Origin: Chloroflexota bacterium
Lineage (GTDB): Bacteria; Chloroflexota; Dehalococcoidia; SHYB01
NCBI GenBank assembly: GCA_016875535.1
Contig: VGPF01000023.1
Coordinates: 1 to 36,937 of the forward strand
Direction of reading: 5' to 3'
Length of the DNA: 36,937 nucleotides
Shown in pieces: positions 11,143 to 35,565 of the stretch. The notes beneath the pieces were generated by a model. It saw only the letters and a list, made by a program, of their open reading frames with translations. It searched no databases and was not told the origin of the DNA. The translations under genes and the position numbers were made by a program. Numbering within the stretch: position 1 is the stretch's first letter; each line of letters begins with the position of its first letter.

Positions 11143-11544
11143 CTACTCCATCAACTGAATTAGGGCGCCGTGAGCGCTTTTTGGATGAATGAAGATGCCG
11201 CCGCGACTGTCGTGGGAGGCGGCCTGCTCGGCACCGACGACTCGCGCGCCTTTGGCTTGCAGAGCCTTCACCGCCTCAATCATGTTCGTGACTTGCACGC
11301 AGACAAGGTAGAGACCTTCGCCGCGTTCCTTAATAAAGGTAGCCATAGGGCTGTTGGGGTGGAGCGGCTGCGCCAACTCGATGTAGGCATTGCCCGTGAA
11401 TATCTTCTGCGTGCGGACACCGCGCCGCAGGGAGGAGATGATGACGCCTGCGGACATACCGTAGACGTCCGTGTAGAGCTTGGCCGTCTCTTCCACGCTG
11501 TTCACGGCGATGATGACGTGGTCAATGCGCTTGTAGAAAGACAT
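11143..11544 (-). CDS. VOC-fold protein (methylmalonyl-CoA epimerase/glyoxalase-like), paralogue 1
   Basis: A 133-aa single-domain VOC protein: MSFYKRIDHVIIAVNS with the first-strand His, AYIELAQPL with the mid-domain Glu, and FIHPKSAHGALIQLME at the end. The methylmalonyl-CoA epimerase-type pattern H-P-K-x-x-x-G is present, but the usual His of the third ligand strand is replaced in LYLVCVQV, so epimerase activity is uncertain. It is strikingly similar to the next gene upstream (11585-11989), a tandem duplication 40 nt away. It lies at the end of the minus-strand run methyltransferase, broken MFS, VOC, VOC. Confidence 0.85.
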   Translation of the reverse strand: MSFYKRIDHVIIAVNSVEETAKLYTDVYGMSAGVIISSLRRGVRTQKIFTGNAYIELAQPLHPNSPMATFIKERGEGLYLVCVQVTNMIEAVKALQAKGARVVGAEQAASHDSRGGIFIHPKSAHGALIQLME

Positions 11545-11584: not shown

Positions 11585-11989
11585 CTAGCCTTCCAGGAGA
11601 CGAATGAGGGCTCCGTGGGTGCTTTTCGGATGGAGAAAGACGCCGGGGCTGTGATCGGGCAGGGCCGTCATTTCGGCGCCGATGATCCGGGCGCCTTTTT
11701 CCTGGAGAGCCTGCACGGCGCCCGGCAGGTTGTGTACCTGGATGGCGATAAGGTATATGCCCTCGCCGCGCTCGCGAAGGAACTTGGCCACAGGGTTGTC
11801 CTGCTCAAGGGGCTGGACGAGCTCGATATAGGCGTTGCCGGCAAATATCTTCTGCGAACGGAGACCCAGCCGAAGGGAAGAGATGATGACGCTTGACGGC
11901 ATGCCGTAAACGTCCGTATAGAGCTTGGCGGTCTCTTCGATGCTGTTCACCGCGATGAAGACGTGGTTGATGCGCTTATAGAAAGACAT
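11585..11989 (-). CDS. VOC-fold protein (methylmalonyl-CoA epimerase/glyoxalase-like), paralogue 2
   Basis: A 134-aa paralogue of the 11143-11544 product: same start (MSFYKRINHVFIAVNS), same TAKLYTDVYGM helix, AYIELVQPL and LHPKSTHGALIRLLEG. Divergence is concentrated in surface loops. The His of the third ligand strand is again missing (IYLIAIQV). Its 5' end overlaps the degraded 3' end of the MFS gene by 43 nt, consistent with the transporter frame having run past its original stop. The role of the pair is unknown; a heterodimer is possible. Confidence 0.85.
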   Translation of the reverse strand: MSFYKRINHVFIAVNSIEETAKLYTDVYGMPSSVIISSLRLGLRSQKIFAGNAYIELVQPLEQDNPVAKFLRERGEGIYLIAIQVHNLPGAVQALQEKGARIIGAEMTALPDHSPGVFLHPKSTHGALIRLLEG

Positions 11990-13336
11990 GCTCGCCGCTC
12001 CTCTTGGGGCACCAGCCTATCACAAGGAACCAGGAGAAGGCCACGGATCGCGTCACTGGGCAGGGTCGCCTTGGCCGGAGCCATCGCACGTGATGCGGCT
12101 GCGGTCAGGAAGATGGCGAGAATGGATAACCCGGCATAGGCGACCAGCATCGGCGAATAGCTGCCGACGTGGTCACGGACGACTGCCGCGATCTGCGGCC
12201 CGGCAAAGGCGCTCAGGGCAAAGACGGCCGTGAGCAGGCTAAAGACCCTGCCTCGATGCTCTTCGCTATAGTAATCGGCAATGGCGGCGGAGACGAGGGT
12301 GGTGACCGAGCGGGCAAAGGCACCATTACAGACGACAAAGAGAACGAGCATCCATATGGATGAGACGTAGGCAAAGACAAGCAGCCCCACGGCTTGCAAG
12401 ACCATCGTGAGAATCATGAGGCGCTTCCGCCCTACCCTGTCCGAATACCAGCCAGTCGTAAAGATGGCAACCGCGCCCGTAACGCCGAGCACCAGAGCCA
12501 CCCAGCCGCCGGTGGCGGCAGAAAAGCCCCGCTCCTCAAGGTGGGGAATAAGGAAAAGATTCGCTGTGGTGTTCCCTATGGTTATACAAGCCTGCGCCAA
12601 GAGGGTGACGATAAGGAACCTGTTTCGGAAGACGAGCTCGCCCGCGCTGAGACGGTGGCTCCTCTCTTCCAAAAGACGCGGTGAAAGCCTCTCAGCCGAG
12701 CCGCCTCCCGCTGTCTCCTCGTCCTCCGGTTTCAGGCCTAACTCGCTCGGGGAGCGCTTGATGAATCTCGCCAGCGGCCATGTGACCACCACCGCGCCGA
12801 CGGCGATCACAAGGGCTGTAGTCCGCCAACCGTACGCTCCTTCCAGCCAAACGACACCGCGGACGATAAAGCACGGCCTATCCCGCCGCTGGCATTGAAC
12901 ATCGCGATGGCCAGGCCGCGCTTCTTCTTGAACCAGGCGGCAAGGATCGCAAGTCCGAGGCCGGAGAAGACGATGGATGCACCTAAAGAGGAAATGGCGA
13001 AGCCGATGGAGAGAAGCCAGGTGGAATGGGCCAGAGCCACCAAGAAAAAGCCGGCGGCACCGAAGACCGTGGCGATACAGAGAAGCGCCCTTGGGCCGCT
13101 GCGATCCAGCCGCCGGCCCACAGCGGGGGCGACGACTACCGCTATAGAGGCTGCTTCATGGAGAAGGCAAAGGTAACGGCCGCTGCGGAGAGACCGAAGG
13201 CCGATTGGATAGGCGTAAAAAGGGCGGTCATCCCGGTGCTGAAGGTGCCCGTCCAGTACATCGCGATGCCGCCTAACGACTGGGCGACCCACCAGCCATA
13301 GTAGGTGTCGCTCGGTTTAGGCTTTGTTGGGGGCAC
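11947..13336 (-). pseudogene. MFS transporter split over three reading frames
   Basis: Three consecutive frames together make one major facilitator protein. Frame 1 (from GTG 13336, YYGWWVAQSLGGIAMYW) runs to about 13158, where ATG-AAG should read ATG-GAA-GCA, consistent with a lost G. Frame 2 carries EAASIAVVVAPAVGRRLDRSG (the loop-2/3 region) to about 12870 (MFNASGGIGR). Frame 3 continues VVWLEGAYGWRTTALVIAVG through the remaining helices. The C-terminus also runs on atypically into the VOC gene. It lies 13 nt after the methyltransferase. This is either recent gene decay or two sequencing indels; the coding signal is otherwise intact. Confidence 0.8.
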
Positions 13337-14165: not shown

Positions 14166-15383
14166 CTACTTGCCCTTGCCGGTGGTAGCTACTGAGGAGC
14201 TGATGGTGGGCGTGGGCGCGGCGTTGCCCAGGATGGCGACGCAGGAGACCTGCGGAGGGCCACCCAGGGTGTGGCAGAGGCCGAGCTCGGCATCTTTCAC
14301 CTGGCGGGGGCCAGCTTTGCCCTGGAGCTGCTTATAGATTTCGTAGGCCGTGCGGAGGCCGCTGGCGCCCACGGGGTGGCCGAAAGCCTTGAGGCCGCCA
14401 TCCGTATTCACGGGCAGCTCGCCTTCCAGCGTGAAGGTGCCTGCGCGAACCTCTTCCGGCCCGTGGCCGGGCTTGGTGAAGCCCAGGTCTTCATAGATGA
14501 CCATCTCCGTAATGGTGAAGCAGTCATGGACGACGGCCAGGTCAATCTCCTTGCGCGGGTTGGCGATGCCCACTTGCTCATAGGCCTGCTTGGCGGCGCT
14601 GCGGTTGGCACCGAAGCCCAGGTAATCGAAGCCGGGGCGGATCATGGGGAGCATGGAGTCCACGGAGAAGCCGATGCCCTTGACGTAGATGGGGTCCTGG
14701 CGGAACTTCCGCGCGATATCGGCGCGGCAGATGATGGCGCAGGCGGCGCCATCGGTGGTGGGGCAGCAATCGAAGAGGCCCAGAGGCCAGGCGATGATAG
14801 GGGCCTTGAGGACCTGCTCCATGGTCACCGGCTTTTGGAAGTGGGCCTTTGGCGAAAGGGAGCCGTTATGGTGGTTCTTCACCGCGATCTGGGCCAGGAG
14901 CTTTTTGCCCTCTTCCTCGGAGATGCCGTAGTGGTGGAAGTAGCGGTTGGCGATGAAGGAGAAGTAGGTGGGCGCAGTGGCGCGGGCCTGAAGGACAGGG
15001 TTGGTGCCGCGGCCGACGCCCAAGCCGCCGAATCCGGTATCCTTGAGTTTCTCATAGCCCACGGCCAGGGCGATGTCATACATGCCGGAGGCTACGCCGA
15101 AGGCAGCGTTGCGTAGGGCTTCGTGACCGGAGGAGCACCAGTTCTCCACGCGAGTCACCGGGATGTTCTTGAGCTTGAGGGCATCGGCGATGATGCCGCC
15201 CGCCTCGCCGGAACGCAGGGTGCCGACCCAGGCGGCTTCGATATCATCCGGCTTGATGCCAGCGTCGTCGTAGGCCTCATAGACGGCCTCAATAATCATA
15301 TCTTCCGGGCTGCTATCCCAGCGCTCGCCGAACTTGCTGCAGCCCATGCCGATTATCGCGACTTTGTCCTTGATGCTTCCCAT
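14166..15383 (-). CDS. SCP-x / archaeal-type thiolase (acetyl-CoA acyltransferase-like)
   Basis: A 405-aa thiolase-fold protein. The nucleophile is C83 in ENWCSSGHEA. H286 (VVHDCF), H336 (GGLKAFGHPVGASG) and C381 (QVSCVAILG) complete the SCP-x type active site, so it looks catalytically intact. Known relatives carry out acetoacetyl-CoA formation or side-chain thiolysis, often in complex with a DUF35 protein. Here the DUF35 domain sits in the neighbouring upstream gene, 41 nt away. The last 17 residues (PTPTISSSVATTGKGK region) are a low-complexity tail beyond the fold. ATG 15383 has GGAC-type purines upstream. Confidence 0.9.
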   Translation of the reverse strand: MGSIKDKVAIIGMGCSKFGERWDSSPEDMIIEAVYEAYDDAGIKPDDIEAAWVGTLRSGEAGGIIADALKLKNIPVTRVENWCSSGHEALRNAAFGVASGMYDIALAVGYEKLKDTGFGGLGVGRGTNPVLQARATAPTYFSFIANRYFHHYGISEEEGKKLLAQIAVKNHHNGSLSPKAHFQKPVTMEQVLKAPIIAWPLGLFDCCPTTDGAACAIICRADIARKFRQDPIYVKGIGFSVDSMLPMIRPGFDYLGFGANRSAAKQAYEQVGIANPRKEIDLAVVHDCFTITEMVIYEDLGFTKPGHGPEEVRAGTFTLEGELPVNTDGGLKAFGHPVGASGLRTAYEIYKQLQGKAGPRQVKDAELGLCHTLGGPPQVSCVAILGNAAPTPTISSSVATTGKGK

Positions 15384-15424
15384 GTCTGTCCTTTCTTCTC
15401 GCCAGCGGTGTGAGAGGCAGTCGC

Positions 15425-16843
15425 CTAGCTCTGGATGGGCCGAACCTTCCAGTAGTAATTATGAAAACCTGCGCCTTCATGCATCTTTCGGAAGGTGAAC
15501 TCCACACGGAGGCCGACTTTAGCCGACATGGCGTCTAGGTCAGTGCCCATGGTGAAGATGCGGCACTTCCCTTCATCGGACTCCACGACGCAGTTGACAG
15601 TTGGCGGCTCCAGGCCCCCGGCAAGGTTATCCCGGGTGAAGGAGTAGATATCGCCGGGCTTATCGTAGAGGCGGACCTCTGTGAAATCGTCCTTGGCGCG
15701 GCAGGTGTAGCAGATCTTTTGGATAGGGTGATGGACGGTGCCGCACTTGTTGCACTTGCTGCCGTGGAGCCGGAGGGTTTCCGCTTGGTCGCGCCAGGAG
15801 GTGGTGGAGGCGGCCCAAGGCTCCACGCGCAAGGGCTGTTCCGGGTTGGTCTGCAGAATGCCGCGGAAGGCGAGCATCTTATCGTAGGAGGGGAGGGTCT
15901 TCTTATACTTCAGATGGCCGCTGACGGCCTTTGCCTTTTTGGGCGTGGCGTGCACCTGCAGGAGGAAAGCGTCCGCCCCATCGCCGTAGCTGGCGACGAG
16001 AATCTTATCGCCGTTCTTGGCCTCTTCGAGCGCCGCCACAAGCATCAGCAGGGCGTGGGCCGCGCCGGTATTGCCCACTGTGCCAATCATGGGGTCCTGG
16101 GCCTGCTTCGCAGGGTCAAAGCCCAAGGTGCGCACCATGCCCTGGTGGCTCCGCGCATCGGGCGTGTAGACGACGGCCTTGGTGATCTGGGAAGGAGCAA
16201 CCTTGGTCTTATCCAACAGGGCCTTAACGGCCTTCTTGGTCCACTCCTCATAGCCGTGCTGGACGACGAAGCGATCTTCCCAGGTGCGGACAAAGGAGTC
16301 CGCATCGCGACGCCAGACATCGGCCACTTCATTCGAGAGGCTGACGTGGCCGACGATCTCCACCGCGACGTTCGTCTTGCCGATGAGGAAGGCCGCCGCG
16401 GCATCACCGAAGGTGGACTCCTGGTCCGACTTGGGGTAGCCGCGCCGCATATCAGAGGCGACGACGAGGACGCTTCGGGCGGAGCCCGCGTTCACGGCAT
16501 CTAGGGCCGCCATAAGGGCGTTGGCGCCGGAGCGGATGGAGTTGCCGAAATCGGCGGTGCGGACGGTGGCGGGGAAATCGGCCGCGGCGGCGATGAGGGA
16601 GGCCGACATCTTTTCGCGGTAGGAGGCCGTGGTGGAGGCGAAGTAGATGGCGTCTATGCCTTCTCGGCCTGAGGCGTTGAGGAGGTCAACGACGGCGTTG
16701 ACCGCCAGGGTCATCGTATCTTCATCGTGGTTCGCCACTGCCCGCTCGCCTGCGCCGCCGCCCGAGCCCCAGGCCTGGGCGAAGGCCTGCCGGGGCAGGC
16801 GGTACCAAGGGATATATGCGCCGATGGCTGTGATGCCTGACAT
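15425..16843 (-). CDS. HMG-CoA-synthase-like domain fused to DUF35 (zinc ribbon/OB-fold), catalytic Cys absent
   Basis: A 472-aa fusion. Residues 1-310 have the HMG-CoA synthase/KAS III fold (GITAIGAYIPWYRLPR start, FGDAAAAFLIG, GTVGNTGAAHALL). Residues 345-472 are DUF35: a zinc ribbon with C364-x2-C367 and C378-x2-C381 followed by an OB-fold (DIYSFTRDNLAGG). There is no cysteine at all before residue 364; the nucleophile region reads DFGNSIRSGANAL, and the expected acid Glu and His are also not evident. HMG-CoA synthesis is therefore unlikely. In archaea, HMG-CoA synthase, thiolase and DUF35 form one complex; a structural or CoA-channelling role for the adjacent thiolase is inference. Confidence 0.88.
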   Translation of the reverse strand: MSGITAIGAYIPWYRLPRQAFAQAWGSGGGAGERAVANHDEDTMTLAVNAVVDLLNASGREGIDAIYFASTTASYREKMSASLIAAAADFPATVRTADFGNSIRSGANALMAALDAVNAGSARSVLVVASDMRRGYPKSDQESTFGDAAAAFLIGKTNVAVEIVGHVSLSNEVADVWRRDADSFVRTWEDRFVVQHGYEEWTKKAVKALLDKTKVAPSQITKAVVYTPDARSHQGMVRTLGFDPAKQAQDPMIGTVGNTGAAHALLMLVAALEEAKNGDKILVASYGDGADAFLLQVHATPKKAKAVSGHLKYKKTLPSYDKMLAFRGILQTNPEQPLRVEPWAASTTSWRDQAETLRLHGSKCNKCGTVHHPIQKICYTCRAKDDFTEVRLYDKPGDIYSFTRDNLAGGLEPPTVNCVVESDEGKCRIFTMGTDLDAMSAKVGLRVEFTFRKMHEGAGFHNYYWKVRPIQS

Positions 16844-34438: not shown

Positions 34439-34466
34439 TATAATCTACGCACGTTATGCGTAGAAT
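34439..34466 (+). promoter_or_regulatory. fic promoter -10 and overlapping operator palindrome
   Basis: TATAAT (34439-34444), preceded by TGC, overlaps a third copy of the palindrome (TAATCTACGCA 34441-34451, then TGCGTAGA 34457-34464), which also covers ATG 34456. A protein bound here would block both RNA polymerase and initiation. The mRNA would be nearly leaderless. Confidence 0.75.
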
Positions 34467-35565
34467 CTATGTCCATCAACAGCCCGGCTGGCCCAAGCTC
34501 ACCTGGGACGCGGCGCGGCTCGCCGAGCCGATGGCGGACCTGCGCCACCGGCAGGGCAGGCTCATCGGCCGCATGGCGGCCCTGGGCTTCAAGCTCCGCC
34601 AGGAGGCCTCTCTCCATACCCTCACCGCCGACGTGGTGAAGACCAGCGAGATCGAGGGCGAGCGCCTCAACATCGAGCAGGTGCGCTCCTCCCTGGCCCG
34701 CCGGCTCGGCATCGAGATCGGCGCCCTCAAGCCGGCCGACCGCCATGTGGACGGCGTGGTGGAGATGATGCTGGATGCCACGGGCAACCATGCCAAGCCC
34801 CTCACGGCAAAGCGGCTCTTTGCCTGGCACGCCGCGCTCTTCCCCACGGGGCGCAGCGGCCTCAGCACCATCACCGTGGGCGCGTGGCGCACCGGGCCTA
34901 TGGAGGTCGTCTCCGGCCCCGTGGGCAGGCGGCGCGTCCACTTCGCCGCGCCCTCCCCGGCCAGGCTCAAGCGGGAGATGGCGGCCTTCCTCAAGTGGTT
35001 CAACGGCCCCGAGCCTATGGACAACGTCCTCAAGTCGGGCATCGCCCACCTCTGGTTCATCACCATCCACCCCTTCGACGACGGGAACGGCCGCATCGCC
35101 CGCGCCATCGCCGATATGTGCCTCGCGCGCTCGGAGAAGAGCTCCCAGCGCTTCTACAGCGTCTCATCCCAGATCCGCCAGGAGCGCGCCCGCTACTACG
35201 AGGTCCTTGAGCGGACGCAAAAGGGAAGGCTGGACGTGACGCCGTGGATGGAGTGGTACCTGGGCTGCCTGGGCCGCGCCATAGACAGCGCAGAGGGCCT
35301 CCTGGCCCAGGTGCTCGCCAAGGCGAGGTTCCTGGAGAGCATCCAAGGCATCACCTTGAACGAGCGGCAGTCGCTGGTCTTGAACCGCTTCCTGGACGGC
35401 TTCCAGGGCAACCTCACGACGGCGAAGTATGCGAAGCTCGCCAAGTGCTCCCACGATACCGCCCTGCGCGATATCCAGTCCCTGGTTGAGCGCGGCGTCC
35501 TGGCCGCCGGCCCCGAAGGCGGGCGGAGCACCAGCTACGCCCTCGCCCCGCGCAGGAAAGGGTAG
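34456..35565 (+). CDS. Fic-domain protein (predicted AMP-transferase) with N-terminal inhibitory motif and C-terminal winged helix
   Basis: A 369-aa protein. N-terminal DUF4172-like domain (IYVHQQPGWPKLTWDAA), then an inhibitory motif T63-S-E-I-E67-G68 of the (S/T)-x-x-x-E-(G/N) type on the helix before the Fic core. The catalytic loop is HPFDDGNGRIAR (205-216), complete. The C-terminal part (about 305-365, AKYAKLAKCSHDTALRDIQSLVERGVL) is a winged helix likely to bind DNA. Fic enzymes usually transfer AMP to target proteins. Palindromes at the promoter suggest self-repression (inference). No separate antitoxin gene is visible. ATG 34456 lies inside the operator. Confidence 0.92.
   Translation: MRRIYVHQQPGWPKLTWDAARLAEPMADLRHRQGRLIGRMAALGFKLRQEASLHTLTADVVKTSEIEGERLNIEQVRSSLARRLGIEIGALKPADRHVDGVVEMMLDATGNHAKPLTAKRLFAWHAALFPTGRSGLSTITVGAWRTGPMEVVSGPVGRRRVHFAAPSPARLKREMAAFLKWFNGPEPMDNVLKSGIAHLWFITIHPFDDGNGRIARAIADMCLARSEKSSQRFYSVSSQIRQERARYYEVLERTQKGRLDVTPWMEWYLGCLGRAIDSAEGLLAQVLAKARFLESIQGITLNERQSLVLNRFLDGFQGNLTTAKYAKLAKCSHDTALRDIQSLVERGVLAAGPEGGRSTSYALAPRRKG

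Follow-up and report, generated by a model that had tools for sequence, protein, structure and literature searches.

The closest described relatives of the gene pair reported here are multi-component enzymes in which a DUF35 protein or domain accompanies a thiolase-fold partner. The archaeal acetoacetyl-CoA thiolase/DUF35/HMG-CoA synthase (HMGS) complex (PDB 6ESQ, 6ET9) is encoded by three genes, operates in the mevalonate pathway and has an active HMGS subunit with the catalytic residues Cys114 and Glu82. PhlACB (PpATase, PDB 5M3K/5MG5; CsATase, 9SKH), also the product of three separate genes, combines an HMGS-like part without the Cys and Glu, a DUF35 zinc ribbon and an active thiolase-like part in one complex that is needed for activity (PMC6392133, PMC12955522). 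PhlA has been published as lacking the HMGS Cys and Glu, so that the residues of PhlC alone act in this CoA-independent C-acylation of phenols, yet activity requires all three subunits; the PhlC active-site residues listed include Tyr298 and no second Cys (PMC6392133). The phl operon was described in 2010 as encoding a DUF35 protein together with an active and an inactive member of the thiolase superfamily, and DUF35 fused to thiolase-superfamily domains was already noted at that time (PMC2954200). MucABC (PDB 9VBO, 9VBT) is likewise a three-component acyltransferase encoded by separate genes, which performs natural-product C-acetylation and whose HMGS/KAS III-like chain lacks Cys at the catalytic column of a phmmer alignment. 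In the steroid-degrading ChsH1-ChsH2-Ltp2 complex, an inert domain of ChsH2, which is of the MaoC rather than the HMGS type, is fused to a C-terminal DUF35 domain, and this domain docks on a partner with the thiolase fold (PMC11321319), in this case an aldolase with a remodelled active site; the corresponding motifs of Ltp2 and Sal are YDHF and YDCY (PMC12329534). Finally, the benzoylsuccinyl-CoA thiolase BbsAB (PDB 7PXP) pairs DUF35 with a thiolase in acyl-CoA catabolism. Given the precedents of PhlA, the phl operon and ChsH2, the principle of an inert partner for a thiolase-fold enzyme is therefore already known; what we did not find described in the open-licence literature is the fusion family itself: a two-gene family, broadly distributed and tied to catabolic operons, whose sampled members have all lost the catalytic residues.

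Here, we analysed a window of 36,937 nucleotides (contig VGPF01000023.1) from the genome assembly (2.5 Mb, 86 contigs) of a member of the Chloroflexota (class Dehalococcoidia). Two open reading frames on the minus strand are arranged in the order fusion–thiolase with a spacing of 41 nt. The first (15425-16843) encodes a protein of 472 aa that Pfam (ACP_syn_III_C and zf-ChsH2), NCBIfam and phmmer resolve into an HMGS/KAS III-like domain and a ChsH2-type zinc ribbon/OB (DUF35) region, and the second (14166-15383) encodes an SCP2-type thiolase of 405 aa. Long plus-strand open frames run antisense to the fusion (15719-16504) and to the thiolase (14271-15116); frames of the same sort are also present in relatives and seem to be a side effect of GC-rich coding.

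The DUF35 region (approximately residues 358-470; 15434-15772) comprises a zinc ribbon with four Cys and, after it, an OB fold. The zf-ChsH2 model scores above its Pfam cut-off at residues 353-384 and the phmmer match to the DUF35 chain 6esq_E (E 4e-11) spans residues 348-470, while the Pfam OB model gave no score on the fusion. Residues 1-363 hold no Cys at all, just as the earlier note had stated, and the first four of the protein are those of the zinc ribbon (C364, C367, C378 and C381; 15701-15754), which 127 of the 129 family members retain. This region also matches the BbsA model weakly, and the window thiolase is a relative of BbsB; to our knowledge BbsAB has no HMGS-like subunit, which sets it apart from the pair. 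The HMGS/KAS III-like domain (approximately residues 1-330; 15854-16843) was aligned by phmmer to 6esq_I and PhlA. An AlphaFold model of the fusion (pLDDT 86, pTM 0.89) has the HMGS/KAS III fold, with a TM-score by target length of 0.90 and an rmsd of 1.7 to the best structural match, 6et9_I, and the ten best PDB matches in Foldseek are exclusively HMGS-like chains of three-component complexes of the thiolase/DUF35 type (6ET9/6ESQ, 9SKH, 5M3K/5MG5, 9VBO/9VBT). The other subunits of the archaeal complex are homologous to the DUF35 part of the fusion and to the window thiolase. Both the persistence of the fold and zinc ribbon and the kinship with the DUF35-bridged archaeal complex had been proposed in the earlier note, and both are borne out; the published precedent of PhlA as an inert HMGS-like subunit goes unmentioned there.

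With the archaeal HMGS of 6ESQ as the alignment reference, the columns of the catalytic Cys114, Glu82 and His are occupied in the fusion by Ile103 (codon at 16535-16537), Thr71 (16631-16633) and Tyr226 (16166-16168), the alignment being less certain at the His column than at the other two. The fusion also falls below both curated HMGS equivalog cut-offs (PRK04262, 203 versus 244 bits; TIGR00748, 149 versus 353). Judged by its residues, HMGS chemistry is impossible in the synthase-like domain, in agreement with what had been claimed of the Cys-His-Glu chemistry, and residues and score together rule out that the gene is the HMGS of a mevalonate pathway. No ordinary HMGS was found in the host genome at E ≤ 1e-20, where the search returned three Cys-less fusions only.

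The loss extends to the whole family as sampled from whole-genome searches, a scan of GTDB contigs (among the matches listed) and plasmid records, which together yielded 129 distinct HMGS-like–DUF35 fusions spread over at least ten phyla of bacteria as well as archaea. Not one has the catalytic Cys (0/129) or Glu (0/129), and three have the His; the Cys114 column is taken mostly by Leu (89), Thr (17) or Ile (8). Among unfused ordinary HMGS from the same searches, by comparison, all three residues are intact in 19/19; for Chloroflexota taken separately, the count of intact unfused HMGS is 18/18. Absence of the catalytic Cys is therefore a family trait, and a lone mutant, the outcome that would have overturned the original proposal, is ruled out. 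Eleven fusions have a Cys no more than three columns away from the catalytic site, but at inconsistent positions, so that a nucleophile relocated by a few residues is rejected as well. The completely Cys-free domain of the window protein is partly incidental because only 8 of the 129 members share it, most others carrying one to five Cys before the zinc ribbon; the same cannot be said of the loss at the catalytic positions.

Three further unfused sequences lack the Cys, of which one is a fusion truncated at the end of its contig (L123), one a frame-broken copy (L162) and one a true exception (L108; 13904-16546, plus strand), a Dehalococcoidia MAG locus with separate genes for DUF35, a thiolase and a Cys-less HMGS-like protein. 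A second exception comes from a Bathyarchaeota MAG (L160; 1012-2523, plus strand) and has the reversed architecture: a zinc-ribbon/OB region, identified by its CxxC motifs and below the Pfam threshold, precedes an HMGS domain with intact Cys, Glu and His, and the gene sits directly after a thiolase. This is an independent fusion and, taken together, the two exceptions show that fusion and catalytic loss are separable.

The thiolase of the window scores 540 bits against NCBIfam PRK06157, above the curated cut-off of 403 for this acetyl-CoA acetyltransferase/thiolase, and its best solved relatives in phmmer include the archaeal acetoacetyl-CoA thiolases 7yvy and 6esq_A. Its active site is intact, with the Cys nucleophile C83 (15135-15137), H286 and C288 of the HDCF motif (14520-14528) and H336 of the GHP motif (14376-14378), as in SCP2-type thiolases. 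A full-length thiolase on the same strand lies within 400 nt of the fusion in 110 of 129 cases, 103 times downstream (median gap 16 nt) and seven times upstream, the latter comprising five haloarchaeal pairs in the order thiolase–fusion with overlapping genes and two tandem arrays. Tandem fusion–thiolase pairs, two in a single locus, were seen at L045 and L044. The position of C83 is Cys in 110/110 partner thiolases, and each of the 109 that could be aligned has H286, C288 and H336. The active-site set given in the earlier note, C83/H336/C381, thus stands for its first two residues; C381 corresponds to a Cys in just 19/110 partners and, since HDCF is invariant, C288 is almost certainly the residue that serves as the second catalytic Cys.

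Fusion and thiolase are also inherited together: their distance matrices correlate with r = 0.80, the highest of 500 permutations reaching 0.19, which shows co-inheritance but is no proof of contact and is not fully separable from vertical descent. Many of the 19 fusions without a paired thiolase lie at a contig end or beside a broken or truncated thiolase, leaving few true orphans. Linkage is not absolute: for several fusions the surrounding sequence is long enough to include a partner, yet no thiolase is present. One of these is a Cys-less paralogue in the host genome (L182; contig C50, 2925-4325, minus strand, of G000) with no thiolase within 14 kb, which may share a thiolase encoded elsewhere in the genome. 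A triple fusion that includes the thiolase was not found among the fetched loci.

The genes that recur beside fusion–thiolase pairs are mainly those of catabolic acyl-CoA metabolism. Among the named loci, acyl-CoA dehydrogenase is found at 18, short-chain dehydrogenase/reductase (SDR) at 17, enoyl-CoA hydratase at 12, CoA-transferase III at 11 and 3-hydroxyacyl-CoA dehydrogenase at seven, acyl-CoA ligases and MaoC proteins recur as well, and annotated plasmids show neighbours of the same kind. The host's other fusion–thiolase pair (contig C10) lies among enoyl-CoA hydratases, CoA-transferases, acyl-CoA dehydrogenases and an amidohydrolase, assignments made partly by eye from the sequence. The window pair itself is flanked by methyltransferase, major facilitator superfamily (MFS) transporter and VOC genes and by a divergent luciferase-like monooxygenase, with CoA-transferase III and amidohydrolase genes about 10 kb away, and this is not a clear beta-oxidation operon. 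The MFS transporter is spread over two minus-strand frames (11947-12810 and 12807-13292) with a 4-nt overlap, due to either a frameshift or an error of assembly. Downstream of the pair, two similar genes of the VOC fold (glyoxalase-like) stand in tandem (11143-11544 and 11585-11989, minus strand), and the relatives in two other genomes (G002 and G003) have a VOC gene of the same type downstream of theirs. Farther away, a plus-strand gene (34456-35565) encodes a Fic/DOC-family protein with a DUF4172 N-terminal domain.

We consider it probable (roughly 0.7) that the pair encodes a putative thiolase complex with a non-catalytic pseudo-synthase, a two-gene version of the three-part thiolase/DUF35/HMGS plan. 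Thiolase-like, DUF35 and HMGS-like parts are encoded together, two of the three fused, and the HMGS-like part lacks Cys and Glu next to a thiolase that keeps its nucleophile, as in PhlACB. The two genes would then specify a holoenzyme that follows the design of both the archaeal complex and PhlACB. The thiolase, acting through C83, H286/C288 and H336, would cleave or form a C-C bond on an acyl-CoA, and its most likely role is to cleave a 3-oxoacyl-CoA as part of a beta-oxidation-like pathway. Docking of the pseudo-synthase onto the thiolase would fall to the DUF35 domain. The pseudo-synthase, devoid of HMGS chemistry, would complete the oligomer as a structural or binding partner and would probably line a shared cavity, either to bind the CoA ester or to influence substrate specificity.

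An alternative that we regard as unlikely is that the pair forms a CoA-independent C-acyltransferase of the PhlACB/MucABC type, transferring acyl groups from one small molecule to another during biosynthesis. The chains of PhlA, CsATase A and MucABC are among the closest structures, and PhlA shares with the fusion the absence of both Cys and Glu. In a phylogenetic tree, however, the HMGS that carry the Cys group in a single well-supported clade, to which PhlA is sister, and the fusions lie outside. Because PhlA is the sister of true HMGS, its Cys loss looks separate from that of the fusions, and with the root unknown separate losses in the two lineages would be the simplest reading. Further, R191 and R/K231 are common to the fusions and the CoA-using HMGS, whereas PhlA has Ser at these positions, a hint of a putative CoA site retained in the fusion. 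The partner thiolases also keep HDCF, in contrast to the PhlC site with its Tyr298 (PMC6392133), the window thiolase passes the acetyl-CoA acetyltransferase cut-off, and the neighbours encode catabolic acyl-CoA enzymes but no polyketide or peptide synthases.

It is very unlikely, in our judgement, that the pseudo-synthase has acquired a catalytic activity of its own through the newly conserved T71, R104, R133 and D147. The old Glu column is Thr in 114/129 fusions, which places it at the 88th percentile of conservation, and at 14 positions, among them T71, E77, R133, D147, E189 and G260, the fusions and HMGS each show strong conservation but of different residues. The Cys and His columns, by contrast, are variable or hydrophobic (Leu, Thr and Ile in the former; Tyr, Pro and Asp in the latter), a conserved nucleophile is absent, and a binding or packing role predicts the same pattern of conservation.

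Less probable still is a retro-aldolase complex like Ltp2-ChsH2 or Sal-Shy in which the pseudo-synthase replaces the MaoC domain. The logic of the assembly is the same, as ChsH2 also presents an inert domain and DUF35 to a thiolase-fold enzyme (PMC11321319), and thiolase-like aldolases had been suggested in the earlier note. The retained Cys nucleophile and the HDCF and GHP motifs of the thiolase speak against that idea; where Ltp2 and Sal have the remodelled YDHF and YDCY sites (PMC12329534), HDC is found in 109/109 aligned partner thiolases, which is the pattern of a thiolase.

The dead domain is under strong purifying selection, the dN/dS ratios relative to the nearest relative being 0.07 for the fusion, 0.06 for the thiolase and 0.07 for the HMGS-like part alone, values that are rough because dS exceeds 1. 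Such a ratio, together with new conserved residues at the dead site, indicates that the domain is selected and not decaying. That the fusion is an eroding paralogue or a functionless pseudogene is hardly credible despite the loss of all three HMGS catalytic residues, given a dN/dS of 0.07, which rules out decay of the dead domain unless the alignment is wrong, intact open reading frames in 129 distinct sequences and linkage to a thiolase across many phyla.

Beyond the preferred reading of a thiolase complex with a non-catalytic pseudo-synthase, we offer only tentatively the wider proposal that the fusions could form a large undescribed class of pseudoenzymes, in which the emptied HMGS site might be a conserved binding or gating chamber that sets the specificity of the thiolase for unusual acyl-CoAs and the cassette might have diversified across many bacterial and archaeal catabolic pathways. 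Relatives occur in very many prokaryotes, with at least 570 confirmed stretches in the scan of GTDB contigs, and are currently labelled as OB-fold domain-containing protein, KAS III or even HMG-CoA synthase. The Cys-less unfused protein of the Dehalococcoidia MAG (L108) exceeds the curated NCBIfam HMG-CoA synthase cut-off (292 versus 244 bits) and such proteins are therefore likely to be misannotated. If the preferred reading is right, these labels would mislead pathway reconstruction. The family, in which active HMGS can be compared with unfused dead, fused dead and reversed-fusion relatives, is a natural test of why a thiolase keeps an inactive partner.
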